A DNA stretch of 48,611 nucleotides from a virus. Both the position numbers and the translations under genes were made by a program. Shown here piece by piece: positions 13,289 to 28,939 of the stretch. The DNA is taken from the IMG/VR virus record IMGVR_UViG_3300045612_000176, positions 1 to 48,611 of that record; one strand, 5' to 3'. The notes beneath the pieces are model-generated. The model was not told the DNA's origin. It ran no database searches and saw only the letters and a list, made by a program, of their open reading frames with translations. The stretch's first letter is position 1, and each line of letters begins with the position of its first letter.

Positions 13289-13540
13289 ATGGAAACACCT
13301 TTAGAACATATTTTATATTGGGCGGAAAAAAAGAAAGACCAATATAATACATTATCGGAAGTGTCTAATAATCCTTCTTTTTATTTAGGTAGATTAGATG
13401 TACTATTAGAGTTAATAGCTTTGATTTATAAAAAACTACCAGAAGAAAAAGAAATGATTGAAAATGCTTATGAAAATGGTAAAACAGGGGATGGTAGAGG
13501 TAGCCACTACTATGAATCCCTATTTAATCAAGATTCTTAA
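13289..13540 (+). CDS. Hypothetical small protein
   Basis: An 83-residue, helical, charged protein (AEKKKDQYNTLSEVS, LLELIALIYKKLPEEKE) with no known motif. It is the last plus-strand gene before the strand switch and its end overlaps the convergent DUF5856-like gene by 17 bp. A terminator separates it from the upstream operon, and I see no clear promoter of its own. Confidence 0.55.
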   Translation: METPLEHILYWAEKKKDQYNTLSEVSNNPSFYLGRLDVLLELIALIYKKLPEEKEMIENAYENGKTGDGRGSHYYESLFNQDS

Positions 13541-13889
13541 GTAAGTAAGTCGTTTGGTATATTAAACTTGCTATTTCGTCACAGATATTTCTAAGATATG
13601 TGTCTTCGGGTAAGTCTTTAACTTTATTATCTACATAATTGGATAGAGTTCCAAAATATTTTACAATATCATCATCTGTTTCTATATTTTTGATACTTCC
13701 AGGCACTTTAATATCTTTTATAATACCATATTTACCTTGATATGCTTCTGCCAAAGAATCTACGAGGTCTAAAATAGTATCATAATATTTATTTAAGGCT
13801 TTATGTTTTGCGTAAGATGATGTTTGTAAATGATAAATTCTTGTTTGGGTACTAGAATGTAGTAAAAATCCAATATATTCGTTTATCAT
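13524..13889 (-). CDS. DUF5856-like protein
   Basis: A 121-residue, all-helical protein. The start IGFLLHSSTQTRIYHLQT, followed by SYAKHKALNKYYDTI and SLAEAYQGKYG, matches the DUF5856 family of T4-like phages, with paired His and acidic residues in a ferritin/Dps-like pattern (LLHSxTQxxxxHLQTxSYAxHKAL). The spaced His and Glu residues could bind metal; function is not established. It is the last gene of the minus-strand block and overlaps the plus-strand gene end by 17 bp. Confidence 0.7.
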   Translation of the reverse strand: MINEYIGFLLHSSTQTRIYHLQTSSYAKHKALNKYYDTILDLVDSLAEAYQGKYGIIKDIKVPGSIKNIETDDDIVKYFGTLSNYVDNKVKDLPEDTYLRNICDEIASLIYQTTYLLKNLD

Positions 13890-13949
13890 AGTTTTTTTAT
13901 ATAAGTATTATTTATTTTCTATTTCTGAAATTAAATTTTGTATATAGAA

Positions 13950-14471
13950 TTAAAAATCTGATGAATTACTAAAGTTTTTATGTGCTTTTATATTGTTCAC
14001 CCTAGTAGATATACTTTTTATATGTCTAAGGGATTGATTACTTTTTCTTATAATTCTTCCTTTTTCTCCATCTCCTAGTATCTTAAGGATACACGGGTTA
14101 GATTTATTTATAAATTTTGAATTAGAAAATCTATCACCTTCAAAAATTGCTATTTTATTCTGTTTTTTTATATAATTTTTTATACAATCTTCAAATTTAT
14201 TTTTTGCATATCTTCTATCTATATCCTAGCCAAATTTAGTATAATTTTTTCTAAAAAAATCATATAATTTAAATACATCTATATTATCTAAGTCTAGGAA
14301 TTCTTTATATATTAAATAAGTACTTACTACATTCTAAGTGCATCCATTTATAAAGGAGAACCAAAGTTTTTGATTCATACTCATATTTAATGATTCAAAA
14401 ATATATGGAAATGCATAATATATGGCTCCTGCGTGAGCCTTGTTTTTTAAGTGAAATTCGTAAAAGTCCAA
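13950..14471 (-). pseudogene. Amino acid:DNA transferase-like gene interrupted by two TAG codons
   Basis: Ignoring two in-frame TAGs (at 14334-14336 and 14226-14228), this strand encodes about 170 residues with good protein character: FYEFHLKNKAHAGAIYYAFP, QKLWFSFINGCT-TAG-NVVST, LIYKEF, then KFG-TAG-DIDRRYAKNKFED. From memory this fits the phage amino acid:DNA transferase family predicted to attach amino groups to modified thymine, whose core reads W-x-x-FxNGxTQNPxT and DTDRRY. The first TAG falls on the conserved Gln. There is no in-frame TAA or TGA until 13950. The start is unclear (TTG 14471, or a frameshift from the ParB fragment upstream). Either a decayed gene or one read with TAG as Gln. 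Confidence 0.5.
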
Positions 14472-14500
14472 AAAAACTTTTCTTCTATTTTTTATATAAA

Positions 14501-14623
14501 TTACTTTGGCTTTATAGAAAGACCCTTGGGCATTTCTACAATACTATTTTTTAATTTTTCTAATTTTTCCTCTGATATTGTGTGCGGATTCTTAGGATTT
14601 GGTTTTATATCGGATAATTTCAT
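14501..14623 (-). pseudogene. Truncated third ParB-like protein (40 residues)
   Basis: ATG 14623 opens MKLSDIKPNPKNPHTISEEK and runs 40 residues to TAA at 14501. This is the well-known N-terminus of ParB/sulfiredoxin-fold phage proteins (xLSDIKPNPxNPRxI, then LKNSI), which normally continue for over 150 residues through a GGHxR motif. A -1 shift at the end would continue as VIYIKNRRKVF into the transferase-like frame. It begins six bases after the TAG of the previous ParB gene, in the same frame. Probably the stub left by a deletion or frameshift. Confidence 0.55.
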
Positions 14624-14629
14624 ATTGTA

Positions 14630-15208
14630 CTATGCTTTTGCTAAATAAAAATCAAGTAATCTAACTAAGACTTCTTCATGATCTACGCAACCCTCTTTAT
14701 CCATAATATCATTTATTGAATCAATTGTAGTATCATAATCGTCAGCATCGAAATTTATTTTCAATGTCTTTAACTTATGTACAACTAAAGCATCCGGATT
14801 TTTTTCTTTAAACATTGAATCTATAAACTTTTTATTGAATCCTAACAAGTCAATATCCATTTCACTCTTAAGTATAATATCAAATTCATCTTTCAACATA
14901 TCATAATCCCATTCTCCGGAAAGCGCTATTTTATTATCCGCTATGATAAATGCTCTCTTATTATCTTCGGTGAGATGGATTAGACGTATAATAGGAACTT
15001 CTTTTAATTTATTAAATAGTGCTGCTCTATATCTACCATGTCCAGCTATTATTTCATTGTTTTCATCTACAATAATGGGATTAACAAAACCAAATTCATT
15101 AATACTGTTGGCAATCTTCTCTATTTGAACTTCGCTGTGTATTCTCGAATTATAATTTGATTCTTTTATTTCATCTATTTTGACAATTTCTATATTTAAT
15201 TTACTCAT
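14630..15208 (-). CDS. ParB-like nuclease-fold protein (second copy)
   Basis: ParB/Srx N-terminal domain: IVKIDEIKESNYNSRIHSEV, then NSINEFGFVNPIIVDENN and the nucleotide-binding IIAGHGRYRAA (GHxR motif), followed by IADNKIALSGEWDYD, a feature of the phage and methylase-associated ParB group. About 192 residues from ATG 15208; ATG 15232 is an alternative that overlaps the upstream ParB gene more. ParB proteins bind CTP and DNA; in phages they often flank DNA-modification enzymes. The stop is TAG, six bases before the start of a third ParB stub. Confidence 0.8.
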   Translation of the reverse strand: MSKLNIEIVKIDEIKESNYNSRIHSEVQIEKIANSINEFGFVNPIIVDENNEIIAGHGRYRAALFNKLKEVPIIRLIHLTEDNKRAFIIADNKIALSGEWDYDMLKDEFDIILKSEMDIDLLGFNKKFIDSMFKEKNPDALVVHKLKTLKINFDADDYDTTIDSINDIMDKEGCVDHEEVLVRLLDFYLAKA

Positions 15209-15815
15209 GATGTCTTTCATTGTAATGTTCAATCAATAATCTTATAACTTCAGAATTAGCTTTTAGGTCGTTCTCATTCATTACTGTCTTGAATTTCTTC
15301 ATCATGTTTGTATAATCTTCTATGTTATATGAGAAGACAATGCTTTTTTTATTTTTAGATGCAGGAGAAGATTCAGATTTATTTGTGGATAAGATGTCAG
15401 TATCATTTTGAAAAGATTCATTAAGCATTTCAAAATCTTCATAATCAAATCCCATGGCCATTGCATCTATGTCAATAGAATTGAGATATTCTAATTCATC
15501 GCTTAGTTTTGTGTAGTCCCATTCCCCTAATTCTGTTAATTTATTATCTGCTATGGAATAAGCTCTTATTTGATCATCTGTTAAATTCTCAATGCGGATA
15601 CATGGGATTGATTCTATATGTAATGCCTTAGCTGCTGTAAATCTAGCATGTCCAGCAATAATCATGTTTTTTTTATCAATGAGAATGGGAATGTTAAACC
15701 CAAACTCTGTAATGCTCTTCATTAATTTACCTATCTGCTCATCCGGATGTATTTTACTATTTCTTGGATTCTCCGATAATCTATTTACATCTATATATTC
15801 AATATTATTCTTCAT
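15201..15815 (-). CDS. ParB-like nuclease-fold protein (first copy)
   Basis: The 204-residue protein has YIDVNRLSENPRNSKIHPDE, SITEFGFNIPILIDKKN, the IIAGHARFTAAKAL motif with GHxR, and IADNKLTELGEWDYT, the same architecture as the next gene. The C-terminal 70 residues are acidic and Ser-rich with a terminal helix. It overlaps both neighbours (11 bp and 8 bp), so the terminase-like gene and two ParB genes form one operon. Similarity to the second copy suggests duplication. Likely DNA binding, perhaps linked to base modification or packaging. Confidence 0.8.
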   Translation of the reverse strand: MKNNIEYIDVNRLSENPRNSKIHPDEQIGKLMKSITEFGFNIPILIDKKNMIIAGHARFTAAKALHIESIPCIRIENLTDDQIRAYSIADNKLTELGEWDYTKLSDELEYLNSIDIDAMAMGFDYEDFEMLNESFQNDTDILSTNKSESSPASKNKKSIVFSYNIEDYTNMMKKFKTVMNENDLKANSEVIRLLIEHYNERHHE

Positions 15816-17086: not shown

Positions 17087-17764
17087 TTAATAACGATTAT
17101 TTGTTAAAGGTTTTAGATTGTAGTATAATTCTAAATCTTTTTCCGCTAAACATTTTATCAGTCTTTTAGATCCTTCACTATGACTTAATTTATGTGAATC
17201 TGATGTATTCAATCTTTTTAATTCTGTAAATGGAATACTTAATTTATTACATATATCCCTAAAATCTTCATCTAAAAATTCTGTTCTTCCAATAAAATTA
17301 ATGGGTTTATCTATCCAAGATACTTGAGTTACATGACTATCCATTATATTTTCATTTATAGTAGGATAAAACCAAAAATCATTGAGTAATTGAATTATAA
17401 TTATGTGCTTTTCATATAATGTGTAATTAACAGGTTCGGGTAAAGTATTATCATCTGTCAATATTAAACCTAAACTTTTTTTTGCTAGTTCACTATCTTT
17501 ATCCCATGAATAATTCAAAAGATCCGAGTAGTAGGATTTGTACCACTGATAAGGCTCTCGAATGAAAGTAAATTTATAATAAGAGTTCCATATTGTATGA
17601 CCATGCTGTTCTAGTAATTGAGAACATGTGTCGTGCCCATACGGAGGTTTATCCCCTGATGAAATACAATCCGGGTCAACTTCTTTTAAATATGTCTCTA
17701 CACTAGTTGAACCGGTCTTTGGAATTCTTATGAAGATACATTTATATTTGTGAGATATAATCAT
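17087..17764 (-). CDS. Sulfotransferase family protein
   Basis: Carries the two PAPS-binding signatures of cytosolic-type sulfotransferases: the 5'-phosphosulfate loop FIRIPKTGSTSVETYL near the N-terminus and the 3'-phosphate motif KFTFIREPYQWYKSYYSD (about residue 75). It would transfer sulfate from PAPS to a sugar, protein or small molecule. I choose ATG 17764, which places the first strand as in the family; ATG 17785 adds seven residues. About 225 residues is typical. Its place between the terminase-like genes and the lysis/fibre block suggests a virion or host-glycan target, which is inference. Confidence 0.75.
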   Translation of the reverse strand: MIISHKYKCIFIRIPKTGSTSVETYLKEVDPDCISSGDKPPYGHDTCSQLLEQHGHTIWNSYYKFTFIREPYQWYKSYYSDLLNYSWDKDSELAKKSLGLILTDDNTLPEPVNYTLYEKHIIIIQLLNDFWFYPTINENIMDSHVTQVSWIDKPINFIGRTEFLDEDFRDICNKLSIPFTELKRLNTSDSHKLSHSEGSKRLIKCLAEKDLELYYNLKPLTNNRY

Positions 17765-17813
17765 GATATACAATGTTATAAACAATTATTTAACGTAAAA
17801 ATTAAAAAAATAG

Positions 17814-25180: not shown

Positions 25181-28100
25181 TTAAATAGTTCTCCATGTAG
25201 TACCTGTATATATCTCCAATAAATTTGTACTTGTGTTAAATCTAATGGATCCTGCTAGTGGACTTATGGGTCTTTGTGCTGTTGTTCCCACTGGGATAGT
25301 CATTGATGCTAAAAATCTAGCCCCGCCCGAAGTTCTACTACCGGAAACAGCAAAAGATCCTGTTAATTGCATATTACCAACTAATTTTATACCAGCTGTA
25401 CTTTCTTGTATTAAACTACCTGTTACATAGTTAGAACCTTTGAACTTTGCTAATCTACCGTCGGTTCCACTACCTGATATGGATGATATAGCAGAAACAA
25501 TATGTCCTCCTTTAGATATTACTGCATATCCGGAAGTAGGACCAGAAAAAGTTATATCAACTCTATTTAATGTTGGAAGAGTTATTGAATCAGGGAAAAA
25601 TAGTCTATTGCTACTATCATAAACTGCTACGTTTACATTTCTAGAATTAAAGTTATGATTTATAGAAGCGCTATATATAGATACAAAAGTTGCTTGAATT
25701 GTAGCAACTTCCGATACCGTTATTCCTGTTAACCCGCTTCCGTCTCCAACAAATGAACCGGAAAATAAAGAACCTGATATTACTTTAGCTTTTGAAAAAT
25801 CTACCTTAGATCCTGATACTAATAATGAACCTGTTATAACCGCGTCTCCGGCAAAAGGAAAACCATCACCACTACTTGTTGGGGGAACATTAGTAAGATT
25901 ATTATAGTCTAAATAGTAAGAAGGTAGTTGGTTATCTAAAGTTACTGCGTTTTGTAAAGACCCGCTTAGTATATGTCCTCCCTTAGAAACCACCACATAT
26001 CCGGAAGACAGACCTGAAAATATAATATCAGCTCTATTAAGTGTAGATAGGGTTATTGAGTCAGGGAAAAATAACTTGTTATTCGTATCATAAACTGCTA
26101 CGTTTACATTCCTAGAATTAAAGTTATGATTTACAGAGGCACTATATACAGAAGTAAAATTACTTTGTACTGTAGTAGCTTGGGATACAGTAATTCCAGT
26201 TAGGTTACTTCCGTCTCCTACGAAAGAACCGGAGAATATAGAACCTGATATAGCTTTTACATTAGTGAAATCTACTTTTGACCCAGATACAAACAAAGAT
26301 CCAGTTATAACTGCTTTACCTGAGAATGGAAATCCAATACCACTCCCTGAAATTGGATATGTTCCTGTAACAATATGGCCTCCTTTAGAGACTACGACAT
26401 ATCCGGAGGATAATCCTGAGAATATTATGTCAACTCTATTGGGAGTAGCTAAAGTTATCGAATCAGGAAAAAATAACTTATCATTATTATCATATACAGC
26501 TACGTTTATATTTTTGGAATTAAAGTTATGATTTATAGAAGCGCTATATACAGAATTAAAAGTAGATTGTATGGTTGCTATTTCAGATACCGTTATTCCT
26601 GTTAACCCGCTTCCGTCTCCAACAAATGAGCCGGAAAATAAAGAACCTGATATTACTTTAGCTTTTGAAAAATCTACCTTAGATCCTGATACTAATAATG
26701 AACCTGTTATAACCGCGTCTCCGGCAAAAGGAAAACCATCACCACTACTTGTTGGGGGAACATTAGTAAGATTATTATAGTCTAAATAGTAAGAAGGTAG
26801 TTGGTTATCTAAAGTTACTGCGTTTTGTAAAGACCCGCTTAGTATATGTCCTCCCTTAGAAACCACCACATATCCGGAAGACAGACCTGAAAATATAATA
26901 TCAGCTCTATTAAGTGTAGATAGGGTTATTGAGTCAGGGAAAAATAACTTGTTATTCGTATCATAAACTGCTACGTTTACATTCCTAGAATTAAAGTTAT
27001 GATTTACAGAGGCACTATATACAGAAGTAAAATTACTTTGTACTGTAGTAGCTTGGGATACAGTAATTCCAGTTAGGTTACTTCCGTCTCCTACGAAAGA
27101 ACCGGAGAATATAGAACCTGATATAGCTTTTACATTAGTGAAATCTACGTGTGAACCTGATACTAGTAAAGATCCTGTTATAACCGCACTACCAGAGAAG
27201 GGGAAACCGATTCCGCTACCTGAGGATGGAGCTATGAGGTGACCTCCTTTAGATACCACTACATACCCAGAAGATAATCCGGAGAATATTATATCTACTC
27301 TATTAGGCGTAGTTAAAGTTATTGAGTCCGGGAAAAACAATTTATTGTTAGTATCATAAACTGATACGTTTACATTCCTAGAATTAAAGTTGTGATTTAC
27401 CGAAGCGCTAAATACAGAAGTAAAATTACTTTGTACTGTAGCTACTTGAGATATTGTTAAACCCGTTAAACCACTTCCATCTCCTACAAAAGATCCCGAG
27501 AAGATAGAACCTGATATAGCTTTTACATTAGTTAAATCTACGTGTGAACCTGATACAAATAATGAACCTGTTATAACCGCACTACCGGAAAATGGAAATC
27601 CTACCCCACTACCGGAAGGTATAGCTACTCCTGTTACTAAATGACCACCTTTTGAAATAACAACATATCCGGAAGATAAACCGGAAAAAGTTACATCAAC
27701 TATATTTGGTGTGGTTAATCTTATTGAATCGGGAAAGAATAGTTTATTATTAGTATCGTAAACTGCTACATTTACATTCCTAGAATTAAAGTTATGATTT
27801 ATAGAAGCACTTAAAACAGAAGTAAAAGTATGTTGTACTGTAGCTATTTGAGATATTGTTAGTCCAGTTAGGTTACTTCCATCTCCTACAAAAGAACCGG
27901 AGAATATAGAACCTGATATAGCTTTTACATTAGTGAAATCTACGTGTGAACCTGATACTAATAAAGATCCTGTTATAACTGCACTACCAGAGAAGGGGAA
28001 ACCGATTCCGCTACCTGAAATAGGATATACTCCTGTCACTAAATGTCCTCCTTTAGATACAACAGCATATCCAGAAGATATACCCGAAAATCTTAAATCT

Positions 28101-28939
28101 ACTCTGTCCGGAGTGGCTAGAGTTATCGAATCAGGAAAGAATAGTTTATTATTATTATCGTAAACTGCTACATTTACATTCCTAGAATTAAAGTTGTGAT
28201 TTATAGAAGCACTATAAGTAGATACAAAACTATGTTGAACTGTGGCTACTTGAGATACTGTTAGTCCTGTCAAACCACTTCCATCTCCTACGAAAGAACC
28301 GGAGAATATGGAACCGGATATTACTTGTACTTTTGTAAAATCTACTTTAGAGCCGGATACAAGAAAAGAACCCGTTATAACAGCACTCCCAGAAAAGGGG
28401 AAGCCTATACCACTACCAGATGCAGGCTCTATTATATGTCCGCCTTTAGATACTACTGCATATCCAGTAGAAGGACCAGAAAAAGTTATGTCAACTCTAT
28501 TTGGCGTAGATAAAACTATAGAATCAGGGAAAAATAATCTATTGTTATTATCGTAAACTGATACATTTACATTCCTAGAATTAAAATTATGGTATACAGA
28601 TGCGCTATATACTGCATGAAAATTAGACTTAGCTGTTGCGACTTGAGATACTGTAATACCTGTTAATCCACTACCATCTCCTACAAATGACCCGGAAAAT
28701 ATAGAACCGGATATAGCTCTCACATTGGTAAAATCTACATTAGAACCGGAAATACTCAAAGAACCTGTTATTTTAGCATTACCTATGAAAGGAAATCCAA
28801 CTCCGTTATTATTTAAAGCGTATGATGCGGTTAGTGCATAAGATGAGGATACAATATTATATAACCTAGACCCGTCTCCCTCTAAAGAACCAGAGAAGTA
28901 GCCTGAACCAGAAAAAATAGTAGGAAAAAGTATTCTCAT
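25181..28939 (-). CDS. Giant tail fibre of eight repeated modules
   Basis: The 1252-residue protein opens SGSGYFSGSLEGDGSRLYN and then repeats one module eight times. Each has GFPFxGxAVITGSLxVSGS, SGSxFSGSFVGDGSxLTGIT, and a beta domain reading ASxNHNFNSRNVNVAVYD, LFFPDSI and SGYVVVSKGGH. Modules are about 120-155 residues. Modules 6 and 8 and their neighbours come from a recent 873 bp in-frame duplication (nearly identical over 563 bp). The end is IPVGTTAQRPISPLAGSIRF with a TGTTW tail. The pattern suits an elongated trimeric shaft. No receptor-binding tip domain is evident, so it may be a spacer or scaffold fibre. Confidence 0.8.
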   Translation of the reverse strand: MRILFPTIFSGSGYFSGSLEGDGSRLYNIVSSSYALTASYALNNNGVGFPFIGNAKITGSLSISGSNVDFTNVRAISGSIFSGSFVGDGSGLTGITVSQVATAKSNFHAVYSASVYHNFNSRNVNVSVYDNNNRLFFPDSIVLSTPNRVDITFSGPSTGYAVVSKGGHIIEPASGSGIGFPFSGSAVITGSFLVSGSKVDFTKVQVISGSIFSGSFVGDGSGLTGLTVSQVATVQHSFVSTYSASINHNFNSRNVNVAVYDNNNKLFFPDSITLATPDRVDLRFSGISSGYAVVSKGGHLVTGVYPISGSGIGFPFSGSAVITGSLLVSGSHVDFTNVKAISGSIFSGSFVGDGSNLTGLTISQIATVQHTFTSVLSASINHNFNSRNVNVAVYDTNNKLFFPDSIRLTTPNIVDVTFSGLSSGYVVISKGGHLVTGVAIPSGSGVGFPFSGSAVITGSLFVSGSHVDLTNVKAISGSIFSGSFVGDGSGLTGLTISQVATVQSNFTSVFSASVNHNFNSRNVNVSVYDTNNKLFFPDSITLTTPNRVDIIFSGLSSGYVVVSKGGHLIAPSSGSGIGFPFSGSAVITGSLLVSGSHVDFTNVKAISGSIFSGSFVGDGSNLTGITVSQATTVQSNFTSVYSASVNHNFNSRNVNVAVYDTNNKLFFPDSITLSTLNRADIIFSGLSSGYVVVSKGGHILSGSLQNAVTLDNQLPSYYLDYNNLTNVPPTSSGDGFPFAGDAVITGSLLVSGSKVDFSKAKVISGSLFSGSFVGDGSGLTGITVSEIATIQSTFNSVYSASINHNFNSKNINVAVYDNNDKLFFPDSITLATPNRVDIIFSGLSSGYVVVSKGGHIVTGTYPISGSGIGFPFSGKAVITGSLFVSGSKVDFTNVKAISGSIFSGSFVGDGSNLTGITVSQATTVQSNFTSVYSASVNHNFNSRNVNVAVYDTNNKLFFPDSITLSTLNRADIIFSGLSSGYVVVSKGGHILSGSLQNAVTLDNQLPSYYLDYNNLTNVPPTSSGDGFPFAGDAVITGSLLVSGSKVDFSKAKVISGSLFSGSFVGDGSGLTGITVSEVATIQATFVSIYSASINHNFNSRNVNVAVYDSSNRLFFPDSITLPTLNRVDITFSGPTSGYAVISKGGHIVSAISSISGSGTDGRLAKFKGSNYVTGSLIQESTAGIKLVGNMQLTGSFAVSGSRTSGGARFLASMTIPVGTTAQRPISPLAGSIRFNTSTNLLEIYTGTTWRTI
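25713..26275. repeat. First copy of a 563 bp near-identical repeat in the fibre gene
   Basis: Nearly identical to 26586-27148, offset 873 bp (291 codons, in frame); I see one base difference (A to G within AATGAACCGG). Confidence 0.85.
26586..27148. repeat. Second copy of the 563 bp repeat in the fibre gene
   Basis: Matches 25713-26275. Other modules in the gene are far more diverged at the DNA level, so this copy is recent or kept alike by conversion. Confidence 0.85.

Follow-up and report, generated by a model that had tools for sequence, protein, structure and literature searches.

The region between a ParB gene (ParB2) and a DUF5856 gene in the viral DNA analysed here (IMG/VR record IMGVR_UViG_3300045612_000176, 48,611 nucleotides, referred to as the window) is almost certainly a cluster of pseudogenes left behind by a phage DNA-hypermodification cassette that consisted of a further ParB gene (ParB3), a TET/JBP-type dioxygenase and an ADDT/P-loop fusion. 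Intact orthologs stand at the same locus in two sister contigs (L042 and L043), and the window shows two deletions and three premature stops. The original prediction, made from the letters alone, had placed two readings of the ADDT frame side by side, namely a working gene in which TAG is read as Gln and a decayed cassette; it is the second that the intact cassette of L042 and the damage in the window bear out. A spurious example of genetic recoding is thereby struck off, and the locus shows the way in which a DNA-hypermodification cassette is lost from a phage. As a pseudogene the relic is ordinary, and the part worth following is the gain, exchange and loss of modification chemistry at the slot in which it lies.

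Genomic context

A longer viral contig of 142,581 bp (IMGVR 3300045412_000261, hereafter the 142.6-kb contig) contains the window at >99.97% identity, with 100% over 12.5 kb around the relic and 99.97-100% elsewhere. The baseplate protein matches that of Microcystis phage Mel-JY01 at 50% and that of Flavobacterium phage immuto at 42%, a resemblance that points to a large myovirus-like phage, probably with the Bacteroidota as host group. Elsewhere the window encodes a sulfotransferase-like protein (17087-17785, minus strand; PF03567, 3.7e-9) and a 1,252-aa protein (25181-28939, minus strand) with long internal repeats, the DNA copies of which are 78-86% identical. On the 142.6-kb contig, a short gene (L020:4534-4779) has an in-frame TGA by comparison with three sister ORFs (TVVGNI*KRFNGY) and is another candidate broken gene.

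Remains of the cassette and its intact counterpart

All genes of the locus lie on the minus strand. ParB1 (15201..15815) and ParB2 (14630..15232) are intact and kept in all siblings, ParB2 having TAG as its stop where L042 has TAA, and the DUF5856 gene (13524..13889), likewise kept in siblings, forms the right-hand border of the slot. Sister phages at this locus were found by a ParB2 search, and the most informative of them, L042, is ~82% identical to the window in aligned DNA. In both L042 and L043 the stretch from ParB2 to DUF5856 holds ParB3 (191 aa, identical in the two), a Tet_JBP-like oxygenase (258 aa) and an ADDT/P-loop fusion (500 aa). The L042 oxygenase scores 32.2 bits against PF12851, just below the cut-off of 34.9 (E 7.7e-8), and its 500-aa protein scores 80.1 bits against PF18724, the ADDT family, and carries a C-terminal P-loop with the Walker A motif GKCGVGKT. 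The label of phrog_6059 is queuine tRNA-ribosyltransferase, yet this family matches Tet_JBP-like oxygenases.

What is left of this cassette in the window is a ParB3 stub of 40 codons (14501..14623), with 92% identity to residues 1-39 of the complete L042 ParB3, followed in another frame by two pieces of the ADDT/P-loop gene. The N-terminal piece (14173..14493) corresponds to approximately residues 8-115 of the intact 500-aa protein, with 69% identity to L042 and 55% to L002, and matches both PF18724 and phrog_3271. Joined to it in frame is the C-terminal piece (13911..14178), the end of the fused P-loop domain (KIAIFEGDRFSNSK...), which is 51% identical to the intact L002 protein (residues 409-497) and 65% identical to that of L042 (residues 411-499). 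According to the DNA alignment with L042, the first deletion (junction 14494..14507) removed ~1,350 bp, that is, the rest of ParB3, the whole TET/JBP dioxygenase gene and the ADDT start, while the second (junction 14173..14178, with a few-base A/T overlap) removed 906 bp (302 codons) from ADDT residue ~115 to ~411, so that the bulk of the ADDT domain together with the P-loop, including the motifs GRLSxFSxxEY, SHRNG and the Walker A sequence, is gone. No remnants of a dioxygenase or PLP gene were found in the window. That ribosomes might pass from the ParB stub to the ADDT frame by a programmed -1 frameshift was considered and rejected, as no good slippery site was seen by eye and the run A-AAA-AAT leads into TAG.

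Much of what had been read from the letters alone stands up to this comparison. The open frame of about 170 residues is 173 codons long (14471..13950, minus strand) and is interrupted only by TAG at 14336-14334 and 14228-14226. Its assignment to the ADDT family is supported by the translation with TAG as Gln, which reaches 27.3 bits against PF18724 (cut-off 26.2, E 3.6e-6, profile positions 12-111 of 232) and matches phrog_3271 at 2.3e-16; a six-frame profile search of the whole record through stops gave PF18724 at 25.2 bits (cut-off 26.2), flagged '2 TAG'. Identity to relatives in viral contigs is 38-54% over the first ~100 residues and 69% to the closest intact relative, and identity of 54-69% to real relatives means that the frame is ADDT sequence and not a chance opening. 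The ParB stub (14623-14501) and the change of frame behind it are both real, and the proposed association of ParB with modification enzymes is seen in L042, where ParB3 precedes the TET/ADDT genes, and in a further sister, L045, where it precedes DpdA.

Three stops interrupt the ancestral gene. The first TAG (14334..14336) lies at a Gln codon in all intact relatives aligned, the second (14226..14228) at Trp in L042, L024 and L002 and at Phe in L004, L009 and L010. The TAA that closes the frame (13950..13952) is premature as well: in the nucleotide alignment it falls on a Leu codon of L042, and homology past it continues to the ancestral gene end. The stops thus replace one codon each for Gln (TAG), Trp (TAG) and Leu (TAA), a set restricted neither to TAG nor to Gln sites.

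Recent decay or a retained short product

Substitution patterns fit a recent loss of constraint. Between window and L042, pN/pS is 0.25 for the ADDT N-terminal piece and 0.08-0.13 for the intact ParB1, ParB2 and DUF5856 genes, and it is the higher value in the relic that agrees with such a loss. Change in the N-terminal piece is still mostly synonymous (pS 0.63, pN 0.16). At sites where the outgroups agree, the lineage-specific changes in this piece number 9 in the window, including the two TAGs, and 6 in L042, whereas those in the C-terminal piece number 2 and 5, respectively; because the N-terminal count barely exceeds that of L042, decay would have to be recent.

The mostly synonymous change, together with a second deletion that is exactly in frame (906 bp), could also mean that a short product has been kept, namely an internally deleted ADDT/P-loop protein made by frameshifting from the ParB stub or by read-through of the stops. 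We consider this very unlikely. A recently decayed gene would show mainly synonymous change too, the ADDT start has no initiation codon nearby (the first to appear is a TTG within the conserved motif), and such a product would have to survive two TAGs in 85 codons, a premature TAA and the loss of its motif-bearing part. Recent decay of the cassette remains the preferred explanation.

Genetic code of the relic

The idea of a working ADDT gene under genetic code 15, with TAG recoded as Gln, started from two TAGs inside a recognisable gene, the first of which does fall on a conserved Gln, as had been predicted (NGNTQN/NGCSQN in the aligned relatives), and it gains some plausibility from PMC9523058, according to which code-15 phages of Bacteroidota exist. 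The prediction was also right that TAA is the commonest chance stop at this base composition: stop triplets in the window are TAA in 51%, TAG in 27% and TGA in 22% of cases, and with TAG at 27% both internal stops would be TAG by chance in ~7% of cases. Its reading of a pure TAG pattern as a sign of recoding nevertheless fails, because the closing TAA is premature too and the second TAG stands for Trp. The deletions have taken the greater part of the ADDT domain, of the P-loop and of the genes upstream, and TAG ends genes normally. Of the 134 ORFs called on the 142.6-kb contig, 15 have TAG as their terminator, and the next stop follows at a median distance of 10 codons (8 behind TAA ends). We set 144 ORFs from three sister contigs against their orthologs in the 142.6-kb contig at >=55% identity, some sister genes being represented repeatedly. 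Among the 29,208 aligned codons, in-frame TAG occurred three times, twice in the relic and once close to the beginning of an over-extended ORF, so no other ortholog carries a convincing internal TAG; as a terminator, TAG was shared by both members of 6 gene pairs and stood against TAA in 3.

A suppressor tRNA-CUA was absent from both the window and the 142.6-kb contig, the latter perhaps incomplete and with its two tRNA-like genes close to its ends, a tRNA-Met(CAT) at one and a degenerate Leu-like tRNA at the other, which leaves a small chance that a tRNA gene is missing from the assembly. The absence of a suppressor and the sense codons of relatives at both TAG sites are together the signature of decay. 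Recoding is refuted for the ADDT relic gene by the deletions, and we regard it as a practically negligible explanation of the locus.

The Leu-like tRNA gene at one end of the contig, which ARAGORN calls tRNA-Thr(AGT), had come up as a suppressor candidate and was rejected: it contains no CTA and, in a scan of its stretch, scores below the Rfam cut-off, and the ARAGORN call is probably wrong. The gene (L012:1500-1585, minus strand, equal to 142,274-142,359 of the 142.6-kb contig) has a ATGATAGT-containing direct repeat between its D-arm-like and anticodon-like parts; its variable arm is very short, and the gene appears degenerate.

That the stops and deletions are assembly or sequencing errors, a concern with metagenome-derived records, is hardly credible, given that the adjoining genes are intact and that the window and the 142.6-kb contig, which look like separate assemblies by their few-base differences away from the relic, agree at 100% over the 12.5 kb around it.

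Proposed chemistry of the intact cassette

ADDT activity consists of the transfer of an amino acid onto a modified pyrimidine in DNA. Judged by family membership, the dioxygenase of the intact cassette would hydroxylate the methyl group of a base in DNA, the P-loop domain would phosphorylate the resulting hydroxymethyl group and ADDT would exchange the phosphate for an amino acid, while ParB3 may direct or assist the reaction. The substrate base is most likely thymine, which is favoured because no C5-methyltransferase or thymidylate-synthase homologue was found (PF00145 and PF00303 in the window, the 142.6-kb contig and several relatives, these being mostly fragment records); 5-methylcytosine supplied by the host or by an unseen gene is possible. 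No complete cassette gene is left in the window, and the proposed chemistry therefore cannot work there; the window phage would thus have lost the modification. A literature search of incomplete coverage for ParB with hydroxymethyluracil, or with thymidine hypermodification and JBP, found no paper.

An exchangeable modification slot

The sister phages share the layout ParB1-ParB2-slot-DUF5856. In twelve sister contigs (L030 to L041) the slot is empty (~45-50 bp), in L042 and L043 it holds the TET/ADDT cassette, in the window it holds the relic, and in L045 (L045:536-3963) it holds ParB3, a DpdA-like transglycosylase (phrog_887, 8e-45), a methyltransferase-like protein, QueD, QueE and FolE; no QueC was seen in this 7-deazaguanine cassette. 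With empty, TET/ADDT, 7-deazaguanine and relic versions at one position, the slot between ParB2 and DUF5856 is an exchangeable DNA-modification site, and from the sister slots that are empty or filled with the 7-deazaguanine cassette we infer that loss and replacement are common there. One slot in close phages can thus be empty, filled with either chemistry or left as wreckage, and each filled version starts with the same ParB-type gene. Related cassettes occur elsewhere with other gene orders: ParB, a PLP-like enzyme, ADDT/P-loop, TET and terminase in L002 and L024, and ParB, TET, ADDT, PLP-like, kinase and terminase in L004.

ParB heads with changing tails

A ParB3-type query returned at least 600 candidate stretches, of which 597 were confirmed and 80 kept among the matches listed. 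Next-gene families were classed as Mom (PF25680), TET-associated glycosyltransferase (TAGT, PF20691), C5-cytosine methyltransferase (PF00145), DpdA, Tet_JBP, PLP/ADDT, QueD and terminase/HNH types, the 'TerS' class containing some ParB genes fused to methyltransferases. In the 88 viral contigs examined among the matches listed, the gene directly after ParB was Mom in 14, TET-associated glycosyltransferase in 12, DpdA in 9, C5-methyltransferase in 8, QueD in 4, TET in 2 and PLP/ADDT in 2, and otherwise another gene.

Three pairs of loci (L108/L099, L065/L066 and L117/L129) have ParB N-domains that are 95-100% identical, followed by unrelated tails and different enzymes, and in all three the similarity stops near residue 100-115, the end of the conserved ParB domain. 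Flanking DNA is 92-93% identical in L108/L099 and L065/L066. For L108/L099, of which the former is of the Mom type and the latter of the methyltransferase type, the DNA is 93% identical up to the breakpoint and again behind the enzyme gene, and identity on both sides of tail and enzyme indicates an allelic swap. At like N-domain similarity the tails go with the enzyme type: among ParB proteins with N-domain identity <60%, tail identity was 46% where the enzyme is the same and 27% where it differs (label permutation 0/2000, the loci being related and not independent).

A constant ParB head of ~110 residues with a tail that changes with the enzyme suggests a constant targeting module with swappable chemistry. 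We tentatively propose, with somewhat less than even confidence, that ParB3-type proteins are reusable targeting modules in which the N-terminal ParB domain sets where or when modification takes place and the C-terminal tail docks the enzyme, recombination at the domain end swapping tail and enzyme together. Physical linkage of tail and enzyme could yield much of the tail/enzyme pattern without docking, and since the loci are related and linkage gives a similar pattern, we infer functional docking rather than observe it. A literature search, incomplete in coverage, found no paper describing such head/tail exchange.

Comparison with known systems

ADDT proteins, the alpha-glutamyl-putrescinyl thymine pyrophosphorylase family (PF18724), come from thymidine-hypermodifying phages, and both relic pieces align in order to intact members of this family. 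As compared with them, the window lacks the GRLSxFSxxEY and SHRNG motifs, both within the deleted 906-bp segment. Within ADDT-type systems, the sister gene in L042 combines ADDT with a C-terminal P-loop beside a Tet_JBP-like oxygenase, and the window copy of this fusion is broken.

In 7-deazaguanine systems a DpdB-like ParB partner would be marked by an ATPase activity required for base insertion. DpdB is the ParB-superfamily partner of DpdA in this type of DNA modification (PMC6392294, PMC12839542), and L045 likewise has ParB3 directly before DpdA, with QueD, QueE and FolE; a ParB-domain gene adjoins DpdA in L066 and L083 as well. Unlike these systems the window relic is of the TET/ADDT type, and the ParB head is the only part in common. 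For the ADDT type a parallel is offered by Mycobacterium phage Fortunato, where ParB and kinase genes are again neighbours, in the order ParB, an ADDT-like gene, a kinase-like gene annotated as terminase small subunit, and terminase. The kinase-like gene goes under the name of terminase small subunit or of adenylate kinase in Mycobacterium phages; this annotation and the phrog_6059 label are likely annotation errors.

Code-15 crAss-like phages, in which TAG encodes Gln (PMC9523058, PMC10607447), resemble the window in having in-frame TAG in a recognisable gene, and relatives of the window phage infect Flavobacterium. The window phage differs from them in that it is without a tRNA-CUA, uses TAG as stop genome-wide and has one gene affected.

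A likeness for the ParB gene itself is in the CmoX/CmoY cytosine carboxymethylation cassettes, where a ParB-domain gene also stands beside a phage base-modification enzyme; the chemistry there is another one, and the accessible text of the source (PMC12783734) does not mention exchange of the C-terminal tail and calls the function of the ParBc gene beside CmoX unknown. If the ParB head is indeed a targeting module common to modifiers of unrelated chemistry, this would supply a function for a gene that, in that text, stands unexplained beside phage modification enzymes, and would account for the quick exchange of DNA chemistry among phages, perhaps in answer to host restriction.
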